Source: a virus. Taken from it: a stretch of 22,361 nt of DNA. The stretch covers positions 1 through 22,361 of the IMG/VR virus record IMGVR_UViG_3300042301_001267, one strand, 5' to 3'. Below, one piece after another: positions 5,722 through 20,947 of the stretch; position 1 is the first letter of the stretch, and each line of letters starts with the position of its first letter. Under the pieces are notes generated by a model. The model was not told the origin of the DNA. It saw nothing but the letters and a program-made list of their open reading frames with translations, and searched no databases. Both the position numbers and the translations under genes were made by a program.

Positions 5722-6624
5722 TTAAAAATATCTAATTGCGATAATGTTTTCCGTTTGTGTTTTTAAATAATTATTTGGCGGATCAACTACAAAAACACCA
5801 GGTGATAAAATACTAATATTTACACCACTACATGTAACATCACTTGTTTCTGTACTTGAATAATAAACAAAACTATTTGAACTACCAGTTAAATCAAACA
5901 CGGCGGTTAAATCACCCGCATTATTCAACGCTTCAATCACTTCATTTTGTGTTGGTAATTGCCATTGAACGCCGTATGTATCCCGGATATAATTTGCCGC
6001 AATTGTTGGTGTAGAATCGGCCGCAACAATTGTGTTTGTGTTTGCGGTTGCAAATCCAATTTCATTTGCATACGCGCCGCACTCAAAATTATTGCAACCG
6101 TATTCGTAACGGTCAATATTAGGTGTACCAACTTGTTTAACTACATATCCATGATCACCCGATTCATCCAAATATGCAATATATCCATCCAATAACGATT
6201 GCCCAATATAAAATGAATAGGTTGATATTGACGGGGTGCCGTAACATTGTATGGTGCCCGTAAATGTGCCTACATTATCAAATGCGTATGTGCTTGATAA
6301 CTCCGATAAGAACCCAATGCCGCTTTGCACTTCATCGCCCGTTTTTGGTATGGCGGGTGAAATTTCAAATGTAATGGCAGATTCGGCGCGTAAAAACGTG
6401 CGTAAATCCGTGCCGCTAATTTTGCCGCCGTCGGGATCTTGCAAATGTTGCCCCTCAAAACTAAAACTAATTTCGAGCGATCCCGGCGATTTATCCGGAC
6501 CGCATGCGCTTGACGCATCAACAACGGTAACCGAATCATTGGATGATACGGATGTTAAACACACAACCGTATCACCATTGATTTTTAAAATATAATCACC
6601 CCCCGCAACTTTGTGTTCGGCCAT
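5722..6624 (-). CDS. Tail tube protein fused to a C-type-lectin-like (Lcl/DUF1566) domain
   Basis: This 300-aa protein starts at ATG 6624. Residues 1-135 are a close paralogue of the 143-aa tube protein encoded just upstream: they share MAEHKV, DASSACGPDKSPG, QHLQDP, GKISGT and LSELSSTYAFD at matching positions. Residues ~138-300 are a different domain. GYIAYLDESGDHGYVV (147-162), IGFATANTNTIVAA (189-202), WQLPTQNEVIEAL (221-233), YYSSTE (254-259) and the final NIIAIRYF follow the Lcl/DUF1566 pattern (G-NT-I, W-LP-EL, YWSSTE, VR-R), which has a C-type-lectin-like fold. Tube subunits therefore likely display an adhesion domain on the tail exterior, comparable in principle to the extra Ig-like domain of λ gpV. 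Stop 5722 leaves an 18-nt gap to the chaperone start. Which tube copy dominates in the virion is unknown. Confidence 0.85.
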   Translation of the reverse strand: MAEHKVAGGDYILKINGDTVVCLTSVSSNDSVTVVDASSACGPDKSPGSLEISFSFEGQHLQDPDGGKISGTDLRTFLRAESAITFEISPAIPKTGDEVQSGIGFLSELSSTYAFDNVGTFTGTIQCYGTPSISTYSFYIGQSLLDGYIAYLDESGDHGYVVKQVGTPNIDRYEYGCNNFECGAYANEIGFATANTNTIVAADSTPTIAANYIRDTYGVQWQLPTQNEVIEALNNAGDLTAVFDLTGSSNSFVYYSSTETSDVTCSGVNISILSPGVFVVDPPNNYLKTQTENIIAIRYF

Positions 6625-6628
6625 AATA

Positions 6629-7060
6629 TTAATCGTAAATTGTTAACGATGGTGTGCCGTACGGCTGTAATGTTAATGTAAATGTGCCAACGGAATCAAA
6701 CGCGTATGTGCTTGACAACTCCGATAAATATCCGGTGCCCTCTTCTATTTCATCACCAATTTGCGGCGTTTCCGGTGCAATCTTAAATCCAATGGTTGTT
6801 TTGTTACGCAACAATTGACGGAGTGATGTACCGCTAATTTTACCGCTGTTTGGATCTTGCAAATGTTGCGCCTCCGCACTATATGATAATTCTAATGTAC
6901 CAGGTGATTTGTCCGGACCGCATGCGCTTGACGCGTCCACAACGGTAATTGAATCACTTTTACTTACTGATGTTAAACACACAACCATGTCGTATGATGT
7001 GCCGCCCGATGGATCAATAAACATCAACATTGTACCCCCGGTTACTTTGTGCTCTGCCAT
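6629..7060 (-). CDS. Major tail tube protein (plain copy)
   Basis: This 143-aa protein starts at ATG 7060 and follows the tail terminator gene, the normal place of the major tail protein. It has the family's β-rich pattern: MAEHKVTGG, a VVCLTSVSKSDSITVVDASS strand pair, QHLQDPNSGKISGTSLRQLL, and a C-terminal FDSVGTFTLTLQPYGTPS strand. It is a tandem duplicate of residues 1-135 of the next gene (4-nt gap, stop 6629 to ATG 6624). The DNA also agrees: 23 identical bases at 6912-6934 and 6494-6516. Subunits should stack as hexameric rings around the tape measure. The short form has no decoration and probably co-assembles or alternates with the decorated paralogue. Confidence 0.85.
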   Translation of the reverse strand: MAEHKVTGGTMLMFIDPSGGTSYDMVVCLTSVSKSDSITVVDASSACGPDKSPGTLELSYSAEAQHLQDPNSGKISGTSLRQLLRNKTTIGFKIAPETPQIGDEIEEGTGYLSELSSTYAFDSVGTFTLTLQPYGTPSLTIYD

Positions 7061-9216: not shown

Positions 9217-10419
9217 TTAAGCGGTGAAATCTCCGATGATTGCCGCGGTTGGTAACATCAAGTTGATATCTTCCAAACACTCAATGCGTGCGGTAATCAA
9301 ATTGCGTTGGAAATTGTCGCTATCTTCCATTGCAAACTCAATTGTTACGCTTTCGGTTTCTACGCGCTCCAAATAATCTGCATCGAAAATCAACGCTTTG
9401 TCAGCCGGAACCCATGATGCAGGAACAACCGGTGTACCACCAATTACAATTGTACCATTTGGCAAAGATACAACTGATCCAGAACCCTGATAATATCCGT
9501 TGGTGTACAACAATTTGTTTAACGCTGCCAATTCTGTGTAATTCACCAAAACGTATGATGCATTAAAATTAGCTTGTTGTTGTTGTGCGATACAATCCAA
9601 CAAATATTTCACGTTATCAGTTTCTGTGCTTGTTGGTGTATTTGCAGCACATGCAGTTGCAACGGCTGTGTAAAACGTGCTATTCTCAATTTTGTAGAAA
9701 TCACGCGTTAACAAACGTGGTAATGTTGTTTGCATAAATGGCAATTGCTTTGCCATTTGTTTTGAGAAACGCGCAAAACCTGCGATGTAATCTTCAACAA
9801 CTTTAATTTCGCTAAAATCGTAATCAATTTGGCCCTTTGTGTTACCTTCTGTTTGTACGGTGAATGCACCTTCGCCGCCTGTTTCACGGTATTGTACATA
9901 CAATCCGGTTGGTGAAACGCTTGTTGGTATCAAATCACGCATGTTGATTTTCTGCGATGGCAGAATGGCTTGCGTTGATGAATAAGACGCTACACCATCA
10001 CCGGTCAAATTGTTTGACAAGGTCATAGTACCAACCGCCTTTAATTCCATGCGGAACGGCTTACCTTTTTTCACGTTTTGGATTGCATCGAAATTTGCTT
10101 CCAAACCTTCTGCGAAAATTTGATTAAATGATTTGGTTTCTTTTGCAGAATTACCGGTTGATTTAACACGTGTTTGCAACATATCAAACGCTTTCAAAAT
10201 AGCGGTTTGCTCACTTTTAAGTTTTGCAACTTCGCCGCTCATTGATTTAACCGCTTCGGCTGAATCGCCGCCGTCCTTAAATGATGCTATTTTTTCATCA
10301 ACTTGTGAAATAACAGATTTCAATTGCTCTGCAATTTCACTCTTTGTTTTCTCATTGATCGAACTTTCAAGGGTGCTTTTTAACCCTTCCAATTCGCTCA
10401 TTAATTCTTTTTTTTCCAT
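9217..10419 (-). CDS. Major capsid protein, HK97 fold, with N-terminal delta domain
   Basis: This 400-aa protein starts at ATG 10419, just after the prohead protease. Residues 1-~90 are charged, coiled-coil and helical (MEKKELMSELEGLKSTLE and onward), as expected for the HK97 delta/scaffold domain removed by the protease. The mature shell part begins somewhere around residues 90-130. It shows the HK97-fold sequence rhythm: MRDLIPTSVSPTGLYVQYRE (160-179), VVEDYIAGFARFSKQMAKQL (spine helix lead-in), a long helix region with FYKIENSTFYTA, YVLVNYTELAALNKLL, then GGTPVVPASWVPADKALIFD near the C-terminus. This is the shell subunit of the icosahedral head. The exact cleavage site cannot be read from sequence alone. 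Confidence 0.93.
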   Translation of the reverse strand: MEKKELMSELEGLKSTLESSINEKTKSEIAEQLKSVISQVDEKIASFKDGGDSAEAVKSMSGEVAKLKSEQTAILKAFDMLQTRVKSTGNSAKETKSFNQIFAEGLEANFDAIQNVKKGKPFRMELKAVGTMTLSNNLTGDGVASYSSTQAILPSQKINMRDLIPTSVSPTGLYVQYRETGGEGAFTVQTEGNTKGQIDYDFSEIKVVEDYIAGFARFSKQMAKQLPFMQTTLPRLLTRDFYKIENSTFYTAVATACAANTPTSTETDNVKYLLDCIAQQQQANFNASYVLVNYTELAALNKLLYTNGYYQGSGSVVSLPNGTIVIGGTPVVPASWVPADKALIFDADYLERVETESVTIEFAMEDSDNFQRNLITARIECLEDINLMLPTAAIIGDFTA

Positions 10420-10429
10420 TTTGGTTTAA

Positions 10430-11176
10430 TTAATTTTTTAATAATTGTTTAAATTCACGAATGGCATCCAACACATCATTTTGCGGCACCGTGGTTTCAA
10501 CCGGCGGTGTGCTACTCTTTATATCAATTACCAATTGCGCTAATTGTTTGCTATGTAATAATAACATCTCAATTGTTTCATCACTTGCATCCGTGTTACG
10601 GCAAAACTTTTCAATTGCGTTTGTGTGCGCAATCATTACATCAATATCACCCAATGACTTTAACCCCGTTATTGGTGTTAATGGATTGGCACCCCACGCC
10701 GTCAAACTTGAACCCTCGTATAACTTTAATTCTGTTATTTCATAATATCCTTTGCCTGGGTTTTTCATGTACTCTTCATAAGGTTGCATTTGGTTACGCT
10801 TCATTATACGAAATCCAATTGAATGCTCCGTTATCAATCCGCTTTCAACCATTTTTACAAAATCCTCACCCAAACGATGCGTACCGATTTGTGATTCATA
10901 CGCCAACCCCGTTGAATCCTCTTTTAATGTCATTAATTTACCCAACGGTTGCGATGGATCATGATTCATCAAATGCTTAATGCGTGGTTGTGCGCTATTC
11001 GGCCCATTCTCTTTAATGCTCTTTTTAAATGCACCAGGGCGGATAATATCGCCGTCCGAATCCACATTATTAAAATGCGAAAAATAGCCGGTAACAATTC
11101 CCTTTTTACCGTCCACATCATTAATTGATGCGCCTATTGTGCCGTTTTTTATTTGATATATATTTTCCACGCTCAT
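10430..11176 (-). CDS. Prohead maturation protease (HK97 family)
   Basis: This 248-aa protein starts at ATG 11176. The N-terminal region has GIVTGYFSHFNNVDSDGDII, then PGAFKKSI, matching 'v.Gy.s.f...D..gdvi..GaF' of HK97-type prohead proteases. The catalytic region shows RIKHLMNHDPSQPLGK (His68/His72) and LITEHSIGFR with Ser119, plus ITELKLYEGS with acidic residues 149/154. A His and a Ser in these positions are the serine-protease residues of the family. It should cut the delta domain of the capsid protein encoded immediately downstream (10-nt gap). The C-terminal ~70 residues are helical and predicted to be non-catalytic. No scaffold is fused. Confidence 0.92.
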   Translation of the reverse strand: MSVENIYQIKNGTIGASINDVDGKKGIVTGYFSHFNNVDSDGDIIRPGAFKKSIKENGPNSAQPRIKHLMNHDPSQPLGKLMTLKEDSTGLAYESQIGTHRLGEDFVKMVESGLITEHSIGFRIMKRNQMQPYEEYMKNPGKGYYEITELKLYEGSSLTAWGANPLTPITGLKSLGDIDVMIAHTNAIEKFCRNTDASDETIEMLLLHSKQLAQLVIDIKSSTPPVETTVPQNDVLDAIREFKQLLKN

Positions 11177-11213
11177 AAAGATACTAATTATTTAAATAAA
11201 AAAACTTTCGTTT

Positions 11214-11393
11214 TTAATCCTCAAAATCTGTGTTTATTTTTTCAAATACTATATCATTACCTTGGTTTGGCAATGGCTCGGTGTGTAAATTATCACCAAC
11301 TATTATTTCATCTGGTATGCCATTTGGAAATGCAAAACACGATTTATCACCGAAATAATGAACACATAAAAAACAATTATCATTTATTGGCAT
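11214..11393 (-). CDS. Small Cys-rich conserved phage protein (59 aa)
   Basis: This short frame reads from ATG 11393 to TAA 11214. Its start overlaps the end of the MuF gene by 14 nt and its stop is 37 nt before the protease start, so it fits the operon. The protein has CFLC, a downstream KSCFAFPNGIPDEI and HTEPLPNQGNDIVFE. From memory the 'CxxC..(y)..d..C.AFP.GIP.eI..G...H..p...D.gi.Fe' pattern is a recurrent small protein in bacteria and prophages, possibly metal-binding through its cysteines and histidines (C7, C10, C19). Its role is unknown. The reading frame, motif and placement make it a real gene. Confidence 0.75.
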   Translation of the reverse strand: MPINDNCFLCVHYFGDKSCFAFPNGIPDEIIVGDNLHTEPLPNQGNDIVFEKINTDFED

Positions 11394-13017
11394 AATCTTT
11401 AAGTTTTATAAAAAAGTTAAATAATGATTTTGGCATTTTTTCCGGTTCTCTGTAAAACATTACCAAAGATTCAGCGAATGTTTCGTGCAAATCCTGGTTG
11501 GAATATTTACTAATACTGAATCTTTCTGCATCTGTTAAATTCTTATATATATTCATATATTCATCCCGCATTAATTTTGCTTCATTTGTAAACTCCATTA
11601 ACCGCGTTGCAGGGTTTATTGTGCCATATTTTGGCAAAATTAACCTTCTATTTATTAAACCCAATAATTGATCCTCTATTGTATGGCCCAATTCATGAAT
11701 AAATAAATCCTCTAAAACTTCATTTTCTGTTCTATGCACCAAATAACGATCATAATTTAATGCATATTGTGTTTGTTTTATTGCTTTATTTTTTAATGCG
11801 GTTTTACTTGGATCTGTTATATCTTCAAATTGCTTTAATCGTTGTTCATATATTTTCTTATAATTAACCACATTATCATTAAAAATGCGCCTTATTTCAT
11901 CCGGTGTGGTTTTTGATTTATTAAATTTAATTTCAATTCCATTACCCAAACCTAATGATTTTGAACCGCCTTTTAAATTCTGTAATGGCTGCAAATTAAA
12001 ATCTGTTATAACACGTTTCATAATGTTATTGATTTTATTTACATCATTCACATTCATTCCGGAATAAGAAACATTTTTTGTAATACCGTTTTCTTTTGCC
12101 CAAATTTCAGCTTCTTTTATACTTCGTGCATTACTAATGCTTATAACATTTTGTTGCGGTATTGCTTCAATTGGTATTGGTTTTGGTGGTATTTGAAAAA
12201 CTGGTAAATTATTAACTGGTTTTACATTACTCCTAATAATATTACCGTTTGCATCCCGTTTAGCTTTAAACGCCACAACACAACGACAATTAACAACCTC
12301 ACCGGCGGGCACTTCCAAACCATTTGGTTGGATCCGCACACCCGGTTGCATCATTTTTACAATGCCATATTTAATTGAATTTATAGTAAACGGTTGATCA
12401 TAATCAACAACCTTGCCATCCACTTGCCGGTGATCATGCCGCGTGCGGCTATCTTTTACCGCAATCCAATATTTATTTAATTGGTTACCGCTTTCCTGGG
12501 CATAAATCATTGCCGCCCCGTTTGCACTTGTTACGGTTTCCGTCCTGGCAATCCTTCGCGCCCTCATTGGTCCAAACTCTGGATGCTTAATTAACGCCGC
12601 TACTATTTCATCAAATGATGCGCCCGTTTGCGCCGCCTGGCTTAATACACGGATAATTATTTCACGGCTATATTGCGTCATTAAATTGGCATCGTTTAAC
12701 AAATCCACGCCGTAATATTGCTGCATCAATTCTACAATCCGTGCATTAAACCCCATTTGCCCGGTTACAAAGTTATCATCCTGCTTTAATGCAATTTCAC
12801 GTGTTGATGTGGCCCACTTTGGCCCAACGTATTTATAAAGATTAACCAACACATCATAAATCGGAAATGCCGGAATAGTTGCAACATCTCTACTCTTTAT
12901 AAACGCGTCCAATTGTATGCGCAATGCTTTGGTAAAACGTGGCGTGTATTTCCGCTCCATTTGTTGTTGGAAATTATCCCAACGTTTCCAATAATTGTTT
13001 TGCTCCCGCTTTGTCAT
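11380..13017 (-). CDS. MuF-type minor head protein with C-terminal HExxH metallopeptidase-like domain
   Basis: This 545-aa protein starts at ATG 13017, overlapping the previous stop by ATGA. Residues ~115-255 form the MuF/SPP1-gp7 domain: RRIARTETVTSANGAAM (154-170), then DSRTRHDHRQVDGKVVDYDQ (189-208) and VVNCRCVV (241-248), the classic 'aRTE', 'D.rTr..H...dG' and 'nCrC' marks. It should reside at the head interior near the portal. After a Pro-rich linker (~264-290), residues ~295-545 form a second domain with DLFIHELGHTIED (437-449, HExxH at 441-445) and DLHETFAESLVMFY (509-522), whose ETFAE could supply the third zinc ligand. This layout resembles zincin effectors of the lethal-factor (ATLF) type carried by some polymorphic toxins. 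Injection with DNA is an inference. Confidence 0.85.
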   Translation of the reverse strand: MTKREQNNYWKRWDNFQQQMERKYTPRFTKALRIQLDAFIKSRDVATIPAFPIYDVLVNLYKYVGPKWATSTREIALKQDDNFVTGQMGFNARIVELMQQYYGVDLLNDANLMTQYSREIIIRVLSQAAQTGASFDEIVAALIKHPEFGPMRARRIARTETVTSANGAAMIYAQESGNQLNKYWIAVKDSRTRHDHRQVDGKVVDYDQPFTINSIKYGIVKMMQPGVRIQPNGLEVPAGEVVNCRCVVAFKAKRDANGNIIRSNVKPVNNLPVFQIPPKPIPIEAIPQQNVISISNARSIKEAEIWAKENGITKNVSYSGMNVNDVNKINNIMKRVITDFNLQPLQNLKGGSKSLGLGNGIEIKFNKSKTTPDEIRRIFNDNVVNYKKIYEQRLKQFEDITDPSKTALKNKAIKQTQYALNYDRYLVHRTENEVLEDLFIHELGHTIEDQLLGLINRRLILPKYGTINPATRLMEFTNEAKLMRDEYMNIYKNLTDAERFSISKYSNQDLHETFAESLVMFYREPEKMPKSLFNFFIKLKDYANK

Positions 13018-13210: not shown

Positions 13211-14569
13211 TTAAACAATCCTTTGTTCTTCATAAACCGGCATATCTTCAACACCGCCGTTTAAATCAACCAATAATTGTTTGCCGCCGTCAATAATGAT
13301 TTGATTCATCAACGGGTTGTCTATTTCCTCAAATTGTTGTATTTCGCGTTTCTCATTTGGCGTAATCCACCACATTGCGTTTAACGCGTCCGCCTGTGCT
13401 TTCATATCATCCTGCAATGCGGGTATTTCGCTGATATCAATTTCAATGGTCCGCTTTACGTTATCCATAAATTTTGGCAATGTTAACACGCCGTTTAATA
13501 ACGCATCCCTAAACAAATAAATGTTTGGCAATATTGAATTGGTGTATAACATTTTTAACGCCGTGTTCATGTTATCATACGTTGATGCATCCGTGTTATT
13601 TAGCAATACTTCGGGGAACTTGTACGCGTTGCACAACTTTGTGAAATCTATCTTTTGTAACTCTACAACGTCCATGTCCGCCAACGGTAACCCCAATGGA
13701 ATGTATCCCATTTCACCGCCCGCAAAATATGGTGCGCCTTTATTGCTCGAATTATGCAGATACTTTGCGAAATCGTTTTTACGTTCACCCAATGTTTCAA
13801 TGGCAAATTCGTTTTTCTCGTACACGATACCAGGTATGCCGCCGTTTTGTATCTGGCCAACGCTTGCATCCATTCCCGCGTTTAAACGTGTAATGCGTTT
13901 GGTTAGCACTTGTAATGGCGATAAGCCACGAAATTGCAACCCGTTTGTTATGGTTGGGTTGTAATATTTAATGTGTATTATTTCATCCGTTGTAAACTTA
14001 CCATCAAAACCAATATCAAAATAACGGTAACCAATAACGCGTTGCGGGAATGAATCGGTAACAATCACTTGGACATTTTGGTTATTTAATGCATGTAAAT
14101 AAACTTTCCCCTGATTTGGTCCTAATTCAATTACTTCCTTATATAAAAACAATTCACCGGTTACGTAAAGGATGGTAAAATATTTTATTTTATCCTCATA
14201 ACTGATTGAATCAATAAATTCAACAAACGGATCCGTATCCGGTAAATCCTGCATTGCTTTTAATCGGTAGTGTTTGCCCTGGATTGATTGTTGGCCGTGC
14301 GCCTTGTACCGCTTCATCATTGAATCATCAACGATTTGGTAACCATACATTGGAATACGCGCCGCCGTTTCACTTAAATAACTAATAATGCTGTACACAT
14401 CATCAATGGTGCAATACTGATCTATATTTTCAACAACTTGCCATGATGGATAAATTGCCGTTGTGGCGTTTATCTGCATGCCTAAATACGAACGTTGCAA
14501 CGCTTTAACCTGCGTTTCTAATTTCTTAATGGTTTTGGTGCTACCAAATAACCGGTCAATTATTCCCAT
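13211..14569 (-). CDS. Portal protein (HK97 family)
   Basis: I place the start at ATG 14569 (452 aa). The frame opens two codons earlier with a TTG, but the ATG gives the family-typical start MGIIDRLFGSTKTIKKLE. The body follows HK97-like portals: DDVYSIISYLSETAARIPMY (entering the wing), a FTILYVTGELFLYKEVIELG β-segment, DEIIHIKYYNP, FRGLSPLQVLTKRITRLNAG, NGGIPGIVY, then VELQKIDFTKLCNAYKFPEV ('.d.r.f...eIa.afgvPp') and the LYTNSILPNIYLFRDALLNG helix. It overlaps terL by 14 nt and forms the dodecameric DNA-entry ring that binds terminase and later the connector. No truncation is apparent. Confidence 0.92.
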   Translation of the reverse strand: MGIIDRLFGSTKTIKKLETQVKALQRSYLGMQINATTAIYPSWQVVENIDQYCTIDDVYSIISYLSETAARIPMYGYQIVDDSMMKRYKAHGQQSIQGKHYRLKAMQDLPDTDPFVEFIDSISYEDKIKYFTILYVTGELFLYKEVIELGPNQGKVYLHALNNQNVQVIVTDSFPQRVIGYRYFDIGFDGKFTTDEIIHIKYYNPTITNGLQFRGLSPLQVLTKRITRLNAGMDASVGQIQNGGIPGIVYEKNEFAIETLGERKNDFAKYLHNSSNKGAPYFAGGEMGYIPLGLPLADMDVVELQKIDFTKLCNAYKFPEVLLNNTDASTYDNMNTALKMLYTNSILPNIYLFRDALLNGVLTLPKFMDNVKRTIEIDISEIPALQDDMKAQADALNAMWWITPNEKREIQQFEEIDNPLMNQIIIDGGKQLLVDLNGGVEDMPVYEEQRIV

Positions 14570-16076
14570 ATGCAAATACCATTTTAGGTTTTAATTCAAA
14601 TATTTCCCGCATCATGAACATGTCCATTAAATCGGGTGAATCCCCGTTCAACTTTACTTTCATTTCATCTTTGCTAATCAAACGTAGTTTGCCGTCATAA
14701 TCGGCTTTATCGCGTTTAATTGCTTTGCGCTCATGCATGAACCTTTGGCGGATATTCATCGTTGCATCATACATTTTATTTGCAACATGTTTGTTAACCT
14801 TTATTTGCCCATCTTCAACACGTCCGCCCATCCGGTAAAAACATTGCGCCTTTAAATTCATATAATTCTCTTTAATTAGCCGTCCGCTTGTTGGATCCTT
14901 TACACTATACGCCGATGCGCCACCATTAAATGGAACCGCGCCCCTTATAAACCCGTCAATGTAACTACCAACGCCATCACTATCATAACAAATATAACGA
15001 TTATCTACCGAATATTTATTTGCCATGTTTTGTATCAAATCAATCACCTGTTTGCCGTCCGATTTATCCATAATTTCAACGTCCATTAATTCGAACCCTT
15101 CCCAATAACCAACAACCAATTTATTACTCCCCTTCATCGCAATATCCGCCGTTATATATCGGCCCTCTTTACTCTTCAACCTGGCACCATCAAAACAATT
15201 GGCGAACTTATCAAAATCAAATAAATCATTTGGGTTATTGCTTACCTTCCAACGCCCTTCTAATAATTGACGCCTCGTATCTTCGTCCTGGCTTAACAGA
15301 TTGCCGGGATAACTCGGATCATTCTCTAACCCCGCTTTATTATCGTAAATGCTACCAGATACAAACGTAATGGATTTTATAAAGTCCTTTGGATTCAATC
15401 CGCTTTGTTCAACCATTGGCGTAATAATGTGCTCGGCTTTTTGCATTACTTCATCATACGAATCCCCCCAAATATAATCATTACCGTATTTAATGAAGTA
15501 CCGCAATACCCCGCGCCGCTCCAATATTGGAAAACCCGTTTCCGGATCAATCCACCATTTGATTAGTTTATAAACCCATGATTCCGGATCGGGGTTACAT
15601 GTAGCGCGAACGAACGGCCGCACCTTACAATTGGACCGGTTACGGCTTAACAGATAAAAAAACATTGATTCACTAAAATGCGTCAATTCATCAAATCCAA
15701 TAAACGGTATCTGTGCACCCTGCCAATCATATTTGTTCTTTTCATATTCCAAATGCCGAAATGAAATCTTTGTGCCTACAGGAAATTTCCAATCTAACGA
15801 TGATTCGCGCGGCTCACCTTTAACAATCGGGTACAACTTCATTGACGTATCCCATAACCCGCCCTCATTCCTAATTTGCACCGATGTGCGCCGGAATATA
15901 ACCCCGCCAAATCCAGGGGTGTTAACGTGCCGCAATGGATCTAATAACAATGCAAATGTTTTACCCACAAACGCCGCCGCCCCACCAATAACAATATCAG
16001 CCGGACTACTCAACGCTATTTCCTGGTACCCCCGTTGCGGTCGTATTATCGTTGTGTTTTGTTGTTGTTGGCTCAT
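14556..16076 (-). CDS. terL: Terminase large subunit (packaging ATPase/nuclease)
   Basis: I choose ATG 16076 (MSQQQQNTT, 506 aa); the frame also has a TTG two codons upstream. The ATPase domain shows Walker A GGAAAFVGKT (31-40), Walker B IPFIGFDELTHF (123-134, acidic pair D129/E130) and the coupling motif TCNPDPES (159-166). The C-terminal nuclease carries acidic residues in YITADIAMKGS (D311), YICYDSDGVGSYID (D365/D367) and GDSPDLMDMF (near 478-486), as in RNase H-like terminase nucleases. It packages DNA through the portal encoded just downstream. Its 5' end overlaps terS by 71 nt in another frame, and its TGA at 14556 overlaps the portal start. Confidence 0.95.
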   Translation of the reverse strand: MSQQQQNTTIIRPQRGYQEIALSSPADIVIGGAAAFVGKTFALLLDPLRHVNTPGFGGVIFRRTSVQIRNEGGLWDTSMKLYPIVKGEPRESSLDWKFPVGTKISFRHLEYEKNKYDWQGAQIPFIGFDELTHFSESMFFYLLSRNRSNCKVRPFVRATCNPDPESWVYKLIKWWIDPETGFPILERRGVLRYFIKYGNDYIWGDSYDEVMQKAEHIITPMVEQSGLNPKDFIKSITFVSGSIYDNKAGLENDPSYPGNLLSQDEDTRRQLLEGRWKVSNNPNDLFDFDKFANCFDGARLKSKEGRYITADIAMKGSNKLVVGYWEGFELMDVEIMDKSDGKQVIDLIQNMANKYSVDNRYICYDSDGVGSYIDGFIRGAVPFNGGASAYSVKDPTSGRLIKENYMNLKAQCFYRMGGRVEDGQIKVNKHVANKMYDATMNIRQRFMHERKAIKRDKADYDGKLRLISKDEMKVKLNGDSPDLMDMFMMREIFELKPKMVFAYGNN

Positions 16077-17233: not shown

Positions 17234-19448
17234 CTTTTTTAAACCGCTTCAATGAATAATCTTTACGATCAATTTCGTACCTATTTAGGTAATTTTTCCA
17301 TTCATCCGACACCCCCAAACCTTGCCCTAAATGCTCTTTAATTAGATCATCGAAATAGTCCAAAAAGTCCTCTCCAAATTGCATTTTGATTTGTTTGCGT
17401 TTTAATTTGTCGCTGTTCTCTATTTGTTTTATCCCTTCATCCAAATACATTTGAACGCATATAAACATAAAATTGTAAAACCTTTGCCACTCTTCATGCT
17501 CCCATTCATCAAATAATTTGTGCCCAAAATGATCAAATGGGGTGTATTTGCTCGAAAAAAACGGCGCAAATTCCAACACCCTTTGCCGCCTTTTGGCATG
17601 TTCTGCGGTGTTTGAAATGCTATAATTAGTCGTAAATGCTATTTTGGGCGATTCATTATAAGATAAAAACAACTCATCTTTATTCTTTTTTTCAACGGTC
17701 ATGCCCTCTGTAATGGTTGGGTAATACTTCTCAAAATCCACGTTTTTGGGGCAATCCTCAATTACAACCAACTTTGTGCCCAATGTTACGCGTTGAAATG
17801 CAAAGGATTTATCCGGTTTAAAGTTTTTACCATCAATTCGAACGGTTGGCACTAATTTACTGATTGCCTGGAAAAACAACCCTTTGCCCGTTCCGCCCCC
17901 CTTTGCTTCATCATCCGTTTCCTCGGCTAATATCGGCGCATATGGTCGCGCCGGATCTTTATAGCTATGCAAAATATAACCAATTAATGTCATTGCATAC
18001 AAAATACGTTCCGGATCATCGCCGCTTATTTTACTGATAAATTGGTAAAACTTGCACTCTTTTAATTCAATTTCATGGTTAATTATAACCTCAAAATTTA
18101 TAATCTGTGAATCCCAAATTGACTGATGGATTGCACCGTATTTGATTAAATCAATACCATCCTTTGTTATGGTTATGATGCCATTTTTAAACGGGAAATA
18201 ACACTTATTTGATTCATCCCGTAATATTTCAACATCGCTTTTATCAATGTATTCAAAAAACGAATCGTTAAAAATTGAATTGGTTTGCCTCATTATTGCT
18301 TCCATTACCTCATAATGCTTTGCATCAACCAATTTTTGTTTAATAAACTTTTTTATTGATTCTGGGTACACTTCGCGCACTATTTTGTTATCCTCATGTA
18401 TCAAACGGTAAATGCCGCTCCTAACATCATGAAAATATAATTGGTAATTGTTAGCGTGTAACCATTCCTGTAACATAAACCGTTGTATGGTTACGGCTCC
18501 GTTTTTGCTATACGTCCAAAACCAACCATCGTTGTTTTGTTGGCCATATACACCCGCCAATTGTTTTACTGCCTTTTTAAAATCCCCGTTGCACTCCAAA
18601 ACGGCATAAATGCTAAATGGGTTGTAACCTTTATTCTCAAATACGGATGAGGTGGTGTGCGGATAAAATATGCGGGTATCTGTAAATAATACAGCCGAAT
18701 GTGCCGATGTTGTGTAACCTGGGCGCAACCAATACATTTTGTTTTCGCTTTGCCCCGTTTTGGTCCATCCGTGCTTTTCTAATAATGCCACAACATCGCC
18801 GCGTTTGTTGTAATCATCCCACACGGTAACAATATCATTGTTATGTGGCAATGTAGGTAATTTGTAGTGCTCAATAATTTGGTTAAATGATTTGGCAATG
18901 CTAATTAATGTTTCCCGCTCATTGATTGATATTACCGGTATTTCTTCACGGATTTGAACGGGGTTGTAACCATCGGTTGGTGGTGCCACTACATACCCCC
19001 CATCGCCCCGCGTTTCAATCAATACGCATTGCTTAACGTTTGGGTTATCATGTAGCTCATCATCGGTTGCGGGGCGTTCTGCTAACTTTTGGTTGCCTTC
19101 TATATATTCGCACCGGTAATAAATATGATACCCGTTTGATTTGGTTTTAACAATCAAAAGTTTGTCATATAATACCGGATCGGCTGCCTTTATTTTTTCG
19201 GCGTATTGGTCAAAATCAACCCCGTATTTACAATCCACATCTATTACTTCCAAATTACCCGATACTGCGCCACATATAACCGCAATGCCTTGCACACGTG
19301 GACCGTCAAACATTTGGTTAATTTCATCCTGGGTTGGTATGCGTTGTTGATATTGCTTCCATGATACAATGGATCGTTTGGTGTTGTCAGTTGGGATGCA
19401 CGATATGCCTTTGGTTGTATAATTCTGTGCGGGCAATTTCAAATTCAT
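17091..19448 (-). CDS. Primase-polymerase / superfamily 3-like helicase (replication protein)
   Basis: This 785-aa replication protein starts at ATG 19448. Residues ~1-165 form a bifunctional primase/polymerase (prim-pol) domain: GIAVICG (54-60), LEVIDVDCKYG with D70/D72 as metal ligands, KSNGYHIYYR (103-112) and ETRGDGGYVVAPP (145-157). After a ~300-residue middle part, residues ~480-670 carry a D5/P4-α-like helicase: YAPILAEETDDEAKGGGTGKG with Walker A GGGTGKG (517-523), LVVIEDC (Walker B, 560-566) and KIAFTTNYSI (602-611), the sensor with Asn608. It should unwind and prime phage DNA at its origin, as P4 α does at iterons. The C-terminal ~100 residues may bind DNA. Its 5' end is overlapped 62 nt by the VRR-NUC gene. 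Confidence 0.92.
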   Translation of the reverse strand: MNLKLPAQNYTTKGISCIPTDNTKRSIVSWKQYQQRIPTQDEINQMFDGPRVQGIAVICGAVSGNLEVIDVDCKYGVDFDQYAEKIKAADPVLYDKLLIVKTKSNGYHIYYRCEYIEGNQKLAERPATDDELHDNPNVKQCVLIETRGDGGYVVAPPTDGYNPVQIREEIPVISINERETLISIAKSFNQIIEHYKLPTLPHNNDIVTVWDDYNKRGDVVALLEKHGWTKTGQSENKMYWLRPGYTTSAHSAVLFTDTRIFYPHTTSSVFENKGYNPFSIYAVLECNGDFKKAVKQLAGVYGQQNNDGWFWTYSKNGAVTIQRFMLQEWLHANNYQLYFHDVRSGIYRLIHEDNKIVREVYPESIKKFIKQKLVDAKHYEVMEAIMRQTNSIFNDSFFEYIDKSDVEILRDESNKCYFPFKNGIITITKDGIDLIKYGAIHQSIWDSQIINFEVIINHEIELKECKFYQFISKISGDDPERILYAMTLIGYILHSYKDPARPYAPILAEETDDEAKGGGTGKGLFFQAISKLVPTVRIDGKNFKPDKSFAFQRVTLGTKLVVIEDCPKNVDFEKYYPTITEGMTVEKKNKDELFLSYNESPKIAFTTNYSISNTAEHAKRRQRVLEFAPFFSSKYTPFDHFGHKLFDEWEHEEWQRFYNFMFICVQMYLDEGIKQIENSDKLKRKQIKMQFGEDFLDYFDDLIKEHLGQGLGVSDEWKNYLNRYEIDRKDYSLKRFKKGLQMGSQILGMDYIDYKNRQNNNLKMFKIEQKGENEQKSVTDVTDLF

Positions 19449-19698
19449 GTGTAAAATGTTTTAGGTTGTTAGTGGTGATGACTATAAACCCAAATTGGGT
19501 TAATTGTTTATGACGATATTTTTGTAACTCGGATAATTGGCCGCTTTCGCTTTTTACCTCTATAAATATTGTATATCCGGCTTTGTGCGCTTGTAAATCG
19601 GGCCAACCATTTTTATTAGATTGGATGATTTTAACCGGGTACCATCCCGCCGATTCCAGGTATTTTATTATTTGGTGTTGTATTTCGCTTTCCTTCAT
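19387..19698 (-). CDS. VRR-NUC family nuclease
   Basis: I choose ATG 19698 (MKESEIQHQIIKYLESAGWY, 103 aa). The frame is open upstream to 19875, but those residues lie inside the helicase gene and look like a shadow, while MKESEIQ is the usual domain start. VRR-NUC catalytic marks are present: SNKNGWPDL (27-35, with Asp34), FIEVKSESGQLSELQ (45-59, with Glu47 and Lys49) and the following basic helix. This is a PD-(D/E)XK-fold nuclease, often seen as a stand-alone phage gene beside helicases, probably acting on branched or replication DNA. It overlaps the helicase end by 68 nt and the primase start by 62 nt. Confidence 0.88.
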   Translation of the reverse strand: MKESEIQHQIIKYLESAGWYPVKIIQSNKNGWPDLQAHKAGYTIFIEVKSESGQLSELQKYRHKQLTQFGFIVITTNNLKHFTHEFEIARTELYNQRHIVHPN

Positions 19699-20947
19699 CT
19701 TTGCGAAAATAGGATAATGTGTAATCTTTTTTGTTAGAAACGGCGCGGTAAATTTTATCCTCAATGCCATTTTCCGAAAATATCCAATGCACCGCCGCTT
19801 CCTTTTGACGATCCTTTGATTGCAAACGGGCACGCACTTGAAAATATGTAATGGCCGAAAAATCAATATTAACACATACCAGGCAATCCGCCGCGCTTAA
19901 ATTTATTCCTTCACGCCCGCTTTGAAACTGTGACAAAAAAACACGCTTTGATCCCTCACTTTGGAACTCTTCCGGCGATTCGGTGTAACCAACCCCCGCC
20001 AATTTAGATTGGGTGATAATAACCAACCGTTCATTTTTAAACTTGTAAAATATGGCTATTTTGTTGTTTTGCTGTTTTACGAACTTGTCAAATATGTACT
20101 CAAATTTGTACATGTCAAAAATTGCCCCTTCCGGCTCACCTTCCGGTACTTCATCAAATATAATGGTGCCCGTGTGTAATTGGTGCAACTTGTTTAATAA
20201 TTTAACCTCTGTATCTGCCAATATGGTTTGGCCATATTTGCCCGTCAATACTTTGTTAATCCGTAACCGGTTAATAATGGTTTGCAACTTTTGCGGCATT
20301 GGTACGTGGTGAATGTGCTCGTTAACCAATTCAGTAAAACCCGCTTCAACCTGGGTAAATGATAAAAACAAATGGTTTGTTTTGGATTCGATTAAATCCT
20401 TTTTTGCCTCGCTGTAATCCGCAATTTGCCGGTTAAATACGTATTTAGTTTTTTTATTTACGTATGTGTTGGCCCATTTATAAAAATTAACCTCTTCAAA
20501 CGGCGTAAACGATGATACAAAAAACTGATGATATAATTGGCTGTAACTTTCGGGCGATGGTGTACCAGATAGGTAAATAATCGGCAATCCTTTGCATATT
20601 TCCTTTAAATGCTTGGTGCGCAATGATACGGTTGGAAATTGCCCTAATGAATGCGCTTCATCAATTATAATTAAATCAAAATTGCATGTTACGTTGTGCA
20701 ACTGCTCAAAATTGATGATGGTAATATTATAATCCGATTTATAATGCTCATAATCCGCCGTAATACTTCCAATTGCCTTTTTTTTGGTTACAAATAACAC
20801 ATTGGTTGCGCCGTATAATTTGGCGGTATTTAGGGCGGTAATTGTTTTACCGGTGCGCACTTGCATAGATAGGTACGCAATTTTATGCGTTTTCAATAGG
20901 TCGCACGCTTGTTGGCTTATTTGGTTTTGGTAGTCGCGTAAAATCAT
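19631..20947 (-). CDS. SNF2-like DEAH superfamily 2 helicase
   Basis: This 438-aa protein starts at ATG 20947. Motif order is complete: RDYQNQI (Q-like start, 4-10), MQVRTGKTITAL (motif I, 28-39), FDLIIIDEAHSLG (motif II, DEAH at 96-99), IIYLSGTPSPES (motif III, 123-134), FLSQFQSGREGINLSAAD (motif IV/V, ~337-354) and YFQVRARLQSKDR (motif VI, 368-380). The SGREGINL and QVRARLQR-like motifs point to the SNF2/DEAD-like family of compact phage helicases. It probably remodels replication or recombination intermediates with the VRR-NUC nuclease encoded in its 3' end. The C-terminus after motif VI is short and basic. Confidence 0.9.
   Translation of the reverse strand: MILRDYQNQISQQACDLLKTHKIAYLSMQVRTGKTITALNTAKLYGATNVLFVTKKKAIGSITADYEHYKSDYNITIINFEQLHNVTCNFDLIIIDEAHSLGQFPTVSLRTKHLKEICKGLPIIYLSGTPSPESYSQLYHQFFVSSFTPFEEVNFYKWANTYVNKKTKYVFNRQIADYSEAKKDLIESKTNHLFLSFTQVEAGFTELVNEHIHHVPMPQKLQTIINRLRINKVLTGKYGQTILADTEVKLLNKLHQLHTGTIIFDEVPEGEPEGAIFDMYKFEYIFDKFVKQQNNKIAIFYKFKNERLVIITQSKLAGVGYTESPEEFQSEGSKRVFLSQFQSGREGINLSAADCLVCVNIDFSAITYFQVRARLQSKDRQKEAAVHWIFSENGIEDKIYRAVSNKKDYTLSYFRKDEGKRNTTPNNKIPGIGGMVPG

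Follow-up and report, generated by a model that had tools for sequence, protein, structure and literature searches.

A lethal-factor-like zincin domain behind a phage MuF head protein and the small cysteine-rich gene inherited with it

MuF minor head proteins fused to metallopeptidases have been catalogued as a class since 2017 (Jamet et al., PMC5576092), and lethal-factor-like toxin domains are known from other secretion contexts (Zhang et al. 2012, PMC3482391). According to earlier reports (Jamet et al. 2017, PMC5576092; Zhang et al. 2012, PMC3482391), MuF toxins are almost confined to temperate phages, and roles of both the counter-defence and the growth-control kind have been suggested for them (Jamet et al., PMC5576092). 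Two described examples are Bxa, from a Bacteroides prophage, and Apk2 (PMC11699363), while zincins have also been found in the polyvalent proteins of phages (Iyer et al. 2017, PMC5512222). Here we describe a locus of viral DNA in which a MuF head protein ends in a domain that, judged from its model, is a zincin of the lethal factor (LF) type and a predicted protease, and in which a small cysteine-rich gene follows directly. The locus lies in the IMG/VR record IMGVR_UViG_3300042301_001267, of which 22,361 nucleotides (nt), a 22-kb linear fragment, were analysed (the window). MuF-metallopeptidases being already known as a class, the new part is the paired small gene.

Bxa and Apk2 are prophage MuF fusion toxins, each with two small immunity proteins encoded next to it, and the locus resembles them in having a MuF fusion beside a small candidate immunity gene; those toxins are an ADP-ribosyltransferase (ART) and an alarmone synthetase, whereas here the fused domain is a predicted protease. 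Like the zincins of polyvalent proteins, the domain is phage-encoded, presumably virion-associated and, by the matches of its relatives, related to LF in profile searches; those zincins, however, sit in large multidomain proteins, and the present protein consists of two domains, MuF and zincin, and has a small partner gene. Compared with the MuF polymorphic toxins described so far, a single named family of small genes moves with the domain and is common to LF-, JAMM- and ART-like effectors, and at least one carrier phage has been described as lytic. A literature search, with subscription journals and preprints outside its scope, found no paper on the small gene or on a connection between it and effectors.

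The fusion gene is a single open frame of 545 amino acids on the minus strand (11380-13017), over which the plus strand is stop-rich. A sequence-only reading of the window had named this open reading frame (ORF) without a strand, and the motifs that it listed, RRIARTE, RTRHDHRQVDGK, NCRC (residues 243-246), HELGH (441-445) and HETFAE (511-516), all lie in the protein where it had placed them. Residues 1 to about 261 form the MuF minor head part (12235-13017, minus strand), with a match to Pfam PF04233 (Phage_Mu_F) over residues 122-248 (E 2.4e-17) and to PHROG 2468 (E 3.5e-35). A Pro-rich linker of about residues 262-289 (12151-12234, minus strand), part of which is modelled with a predicted local distance difference test (pLDDT) of 52-58 (residues 271-290, the first 20 of the domain model), leads to the zincin domain of residues 290-545 (11383-12150, minus strand). 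The complete MuF proteins of two close relatives, L004 and L005 (262 residues; L-numbers are our labels for relative loci and contigs), are 79% identical to the MuF part of the window and end at its boundary, and G+C content drops at the same junction, from roughly 0.42 (0.39-0.50 over residues 1-250) to 0.28 (0.26-0.31 over residues 251-545). PF04233 is found at 1e-3 in 23 of 36 full-length relatives, and another minor capsid family in three. As in MuF polymorphic toxins, the N-terminal PF04233 part is encoded between portal and prohead protease, and a small ORF, a candidate for immunity, lies downstream.

The AlphaFold2 model of the domain, built on the alignment of its relatives, reached a pLDDT of 91.4 and a predicted template modelling score (pTM) of 0.86. 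By VIA-align, its best match in the PDB is the catalytic domain of anthrax LF (LF 562-775; Z 12.1 over 158 residues, 2.8 Å, 18% identity), followed by PPEP-1 and PPEP-3 (Z 9-9.5; PPEP-3 at Z 9.5) and then by the MtfA-like structure 3khi (Z 8.3). Foldseek also returned LF as its top PDB matches, weak on their own (E 0.067). Predicted viral structures labelled minor capsid protein, metalloprotease or lethal factor matched at E 6e-5 to 3e-4. The catalytic fold (Z 12.1 and 9.5), the HExxH helix and the downstream Glu helix are shared with ATLF or Tox-ALFMetallopeptidase (Zhang et al. 2012) and with the Pro-Pro endopeptidases. The domain differs from LF in its low identity, in having none of the LF delivery and translocation domains, in being borne by a phage head protein and in falling below detection by the ATLF profile, whereas M90 (MtfA) shares a related fold but is structurally further away than LF and the PPEP proteins. 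The LF match spans the whole catalytic domain, so that the two motif helices would not lie far apart, and the likeness to ATLF zincins that had been seen by eye is borne out by the model, by the fold match and by the Pfam ATLF profile: with a limit of E 1, it is found in 23 of the 30 relatives in the alignment, at best with 1.2e-6.

Relatives of the domain were collected by scanning the DNA of viral contigs for the motif HExGH ... ExFAE, which gave at least 119 stretches, with the motif in 114 ORFs among the matches listed. Eight residues (H441, E442, G444, H445, Y505, E512, A515 and E516) do not vary across 30 aligned domains, S503 and F514 are nearly invariant, and the H, E, G and H of HELGH, along with Y505, E512 and E516, are also invariant in 36 aligned relatives. 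HExGH and ExFAE belonged to the search pattern, and their conservation is therefore partly selected; S503 and Y505 lie outside the pattern, so that their conservation counts as independent evidence. Six loci found via a separate stretch, IKEAE[QI]W (L129-L134), have no DLFIHEL stretch and keep HExGH and the downstream Glu. HELGH (11683-11697, minus strand) would provide the zinc ligands H441 and H445 and the base E442, and the segment from Y505 to E516 (11470-11505, minus strand) the third ligand, E512, with the Tyr seven residues earlier. In LF, too, a Tyr stands seven residues before the Glu. The residues that had been proposed to cluster around zinc, H441, E442, H445 and E512 or E516, are all conserved, with neither histidine of HELGH lost in relatives. 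H511 of HETFAE is variable and replaced by Asp in L037 and L102 (DEVFAE), which rules it out as a ligand. The candidate for the third ligand, from the alignment, is E512 rather than H511. The predicted geometry of the zinc site is drawn from the fold match and the conservation. The retained catalytic residues argue for activity of the predicted zincin, and a chance occurrence of HExxH is ruled out by conservation of the motif set together with the fold.

Profile and sequence searches placed the domain at a distance from named families. The window protein has no match to the Pfam ATLF profile up to E 10, no Pfam family reaches its cut-off over the C-terminal domain, and Peptidase M90 (MtfA) was rejected, as its score of 20.3 bits is under the curated gathering threshold of 26.2. 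A sequence search of the PDB with the domain gave chance pneumolysin matches only, no annotated phage was matched by the domain in tblastn, and a scan of a genome collection with the domain alignment returned zero relatives.

The sequence-only reading had identified no separate immunity gene, and this has to be corrected, since a Cys-rich gene of 59 amino acids (11214-11393, minus strand) overlaps the stop codon of the fusion gene: its start codon lies inside the MuF-fusion gene, with an overlap of 14 nt across the MuF stop. We regard it as a candidate immunity or inhibitor gene. The small protein has the pattern C7-x2-C10, C19-x-A-F-P-x-G-I-P, I30, G33 and H37, and among 16 homologs adjoining the domain C7, C10, C19, A21, P27, I30 and H37 are invariant. 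It is a member of PHROG 33375 (E 5.8e-7 over residues 1-57), which is matched by 15 of the 16 aligned homologs and to which the database assigns no function; the partnership with effectors is proposed here. Pfam and NCBIfam gave no match for the small protein of the window, and scattered weak ones in its homologs only. Regular structure is scarce in its model (pLDDT 86). Because of the Cys/His pattern we propose that the protein probably holds zinc through three Cys and one His, which is a guess from sequence.

Comparison of closely related loci revealed that the domain and the small gene behave as a single heritable cassette: behind a MuF part that stays constant, the two are gained, lost or exchanged together. 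The syntenic relatives L004 and L005 are close to the window in portal (90% identical), capsid protein (95%) and prohead protease (85%), as in MuF (79%; all measured on L004), and both domain and small gene are absent from them: MuF comes to an end with residue 262 (NGNIIRRR, stop), and 38 bp separate it from the gene for the prohead protease. In a blastn comparison of the window with L005 the match ends at window position 12236 and restarts at 11207, with L005 contiguous within 12 bp, and these junctions delimit an exchangeable cassette at 11207-12235 (minus strand). Replacement is seen between L128 and L131, where MuF is 98% and prohead protease 99% identical, and the domain only 44% and the small protein 47%; the opposite relation holds between the window and L126, with MuF at 25%, the domain at 49% and the small protein at 59% identity. 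Over 15 pairs, which are non-independent, small-protein identity tracks that of the domain (r 0.83) and not that of MuF (r 0.21). A survey for swapped C-termini behind a constant MuF part, as the sequence-only reading had suggested, therefore found the domain absent in L004/L005 and replaced in L131 compared with L128, that is, a variable C-terminal enzymatic domain behind a conserved MuF part, as in MuF polymorphic toxins.

In order to see which proteins the small gene accompanies, it was used as bait in viral contigs and the directly upstream ORF was read. C-x2-C is present in 98 of the 119 bait-selected ORFs listed, and nearly all of the remainder have C-x4-C. Among at least 116 matches listed, 53 lie directly behind LF-like domains (assigned by profile), 8 behind other HExxH proteins, 11 behind JAMM-like and 4 behind ART proteins (both by motif) and 18 behind other ORFs, with 14 having no long upstream ORF and the remaining 8 lying at the end of a contig. 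Inspection by eye adds about five JAMM-like and about five ART- or PARP-like proteins from among the 18 others. Some of the upstream frames are long but lie in GC-rich DNA, and these are not necessarily real genes. Pfam assigned ADP-ribosyltransferase in L161 and L188 and weak PARP or ART-PolyVal in L241 and L215, and the JAMM label stands for the motif HxHP...SxxD alone, as Pfam gave no such name. A small gene specific to the LF-like domain is ruled out by the JAMM- and ART-like partners. As a control with MuF as the only bait, 118 MuF ORFs were read, and the small gene was found behind none of the 100 short ones with downstream room. A small gene thus predicts an effector domain much better than an effector domain predicts a small gene. 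On a tree of the small proteins, their subtypes sort with effector class (15 changes, against a mean of 21.4, a standard deviation of 1.2 and a minimum of 18 in shuffles), a clustering to which host lineage could contribute. JAMM-like ends (HNHPxxxSFSxxDI) occur on virion-type proteins in L146, L154, L172, L177, L179, L195, L211, L226, L227, L229 and others; they are paired with the small-gene subtype GIPxxIWxGxNDH, and Pfam was silent in the two that were scanned (L195, L226). Tandem double copies of the small gene, as in polyimmunity arrays, are seen in L140 (2637-3277) and L213 (2280-3003).

The C-terminal domain and the small gene are also found on other carriers. In Brevibacillus phage Jenst (L136, 2136-3719) the LF-like domain sits on a low-copy virion protein other than MuF, with the small gene one gene further, and a Paenibacillus contig repeats this arrangement. 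Flavobacterium phage lotta8-2, whose genus has been described among lytic phages (PMC7077304) and whose annotation has no integrase, carries a MuF-HEFGH fusion (gp028) overlapped by the small gene (gp029). An Oscillatoria plasmid (L389, 1-3171) encodes a DUF4114 protein with an ART-like end, assigned by eye; the small gene follows it at a distance of 4 nt, and a gene for a DNA/RNA non-specific endonuclease comes next. In L188 (6040-7512, minus strand) an Acb1 anti-CBASS domain (Pfam E 1.4e-37) is fused to an ADP-ribosyltransferase (E 2.6e-18), and the small gene follows. Copies in bacterial chromosomes with no recognisable effector beside them were seen in L381 (8538-8786, minus strand), L383 (7725-7982, minus strand) and L382 (7772-8047), those in L381 and L383 resembling the JAMM-associated subtype. 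A search of about 300 genomes from the phylum of Paenibacillus gave 6 small-protein matches, five of them with no recognisable adjacent effector in the stretches read.

Taken together, these results suggest a toxin-inhibitor account, with MuF packaging, a zincin cargo and a small inhibitor, as the most economical one, and we put the probability at roughly 0.6 that the locus encodes a MuF-type polymorphic effector, in which an LF-like protease is packaged and delivered and the small protein keeps the producer safe. The MuF part would put a few copies into the capsid, and the zinc protease would enter the cell with the DNA and cut one or more host proteins, using the active site predicted above, in which Y505 would also be placed. 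The 59-residue protein, made together with the protease, would most likely hold it inactive in the producing cell. An ART partner outside any phage, together with replacement in step with the domain, points to a small protein that serves the effector and not the capsid. For the same reasons a chaperone or loading factor specific to the effector as head cargo, beside an unchanged protease, appears rather unlikely to us: such a factor could accompany effectors of differing chemistry, be missing behind short MuF and be carried by a lytic phage, as is observed, but the small gene changes with the domain while MuF stays constant, and behind the plasmid ART-like protein there is no capsid to load. 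A chaperone delivering zinc to the protease is also unlikely, as ART partners need no zinc. Several observations nevertheless weigh against the toxin-inhibitor account. The small gene is not obligatory, being present behind 18 of 95 LF-like ORFs with downstream room among the motif matches listed, and 8 long MuF ORFs of the control, two of them LF-like, are also without it; its modelled protein has no match to any solved structure in the PDB; orphan copies, and tandem ones, are present in bacterial contigs and chromosomes and on an archaeal plasmid, the orphans being the difficulty; and lotta8-2, described among lytic phages, carries the pair, so that protection of a lysogen is not the general reason for the small gene. 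One family beside chemically different enzymes is, moreover, unusual for classic one-to-one immunity, although immunity families guarding several enzyme types have precedents in SUKH and SuFu (PMC3482391). It is possible, if doubtful, that PHROG 33375 is a broad zinc-binding immunity family directed against unrelated effectors, phage-injected or non-phage, with the chromosomal orphans protecting bacteria.

The role of the protease can also be read differently. Autoprocessing by the zincins of polyvalent phage proteins has been proposed (Iyer et al. 2017, PMC5512222), and the zincin might by analogy be a virion processing enzyme, with the MuF fusion or other head proteins as its substrates while the head matures or ejects its DNA; the domain, however, is the last part of the protein, so that a cut would free no further segment, and the presence of a separate prohead protease (S78) and of very close relatives with no such domain makes this improbable and speaks against head maturation as the main role. 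As to what a delivered protease would cut, one tentative version of the toxin-inhibitor account, differing from it in the target, is that the injected enzyme would degrade a protein with which the host fights phages, the small protein keeping the side effects in check. Jamet et al. (2017, PMC5576092) suggest that MuF toxins of moderate activity, peptidases among them, may serve to direct the infection or to withstand defences; the pair is present in a lytic phage, and the anti-CBASS-ART protein of L188 precedes a small gene. Against this, defence-system profiles gave no match for either the domain-bearing protein or the small protein. The minimal pairs (L004/L005 with no module, L128/L131 with a replaced one) and a named partner gene make the role of a MuF-metallopeptidase testable. 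If it is a shared immunity family, the small gene would further be a marker for undiscovered virion-borne effectors, because in viral contigs it is mostly directly behind an effector-bearing protein and never behind short MuF.

The surrounding genes of the window are those of a phage head module on the minus strand, in the order portal protein (13211-14575; Pfam E 1.8e-32), one 64-amino-acid gene and the MuF fusion, and downstream the prohead protease of S78/HK97 type, the next gene after the cassette (10430-11176; Pfam E 1.4e-22; 85% identical to that of L004), and the major capsid protein (9217-10419; Pfam E 1.3e-9; PHROG 10, E 1e-16). No integrase was seen among the ORFs of this 22-kb linear fragment. 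Elsewhere in the window, a VRR-NUC-like ORF overlaps a helicase-like ORF by more than 200 nt in another frame (19387-19875 and 19631-20947, minus strand), and translation of the nuclease probably begins at a more internal position. Two neighbouring paralogous tail-tube-like proteins (5722-6624 and 6629-7060) differ in that the longer one has a C-terminal extension, by eye like adhesin-like C-terminal domains; L004 and L005 keep the pair, with the extension diverged.
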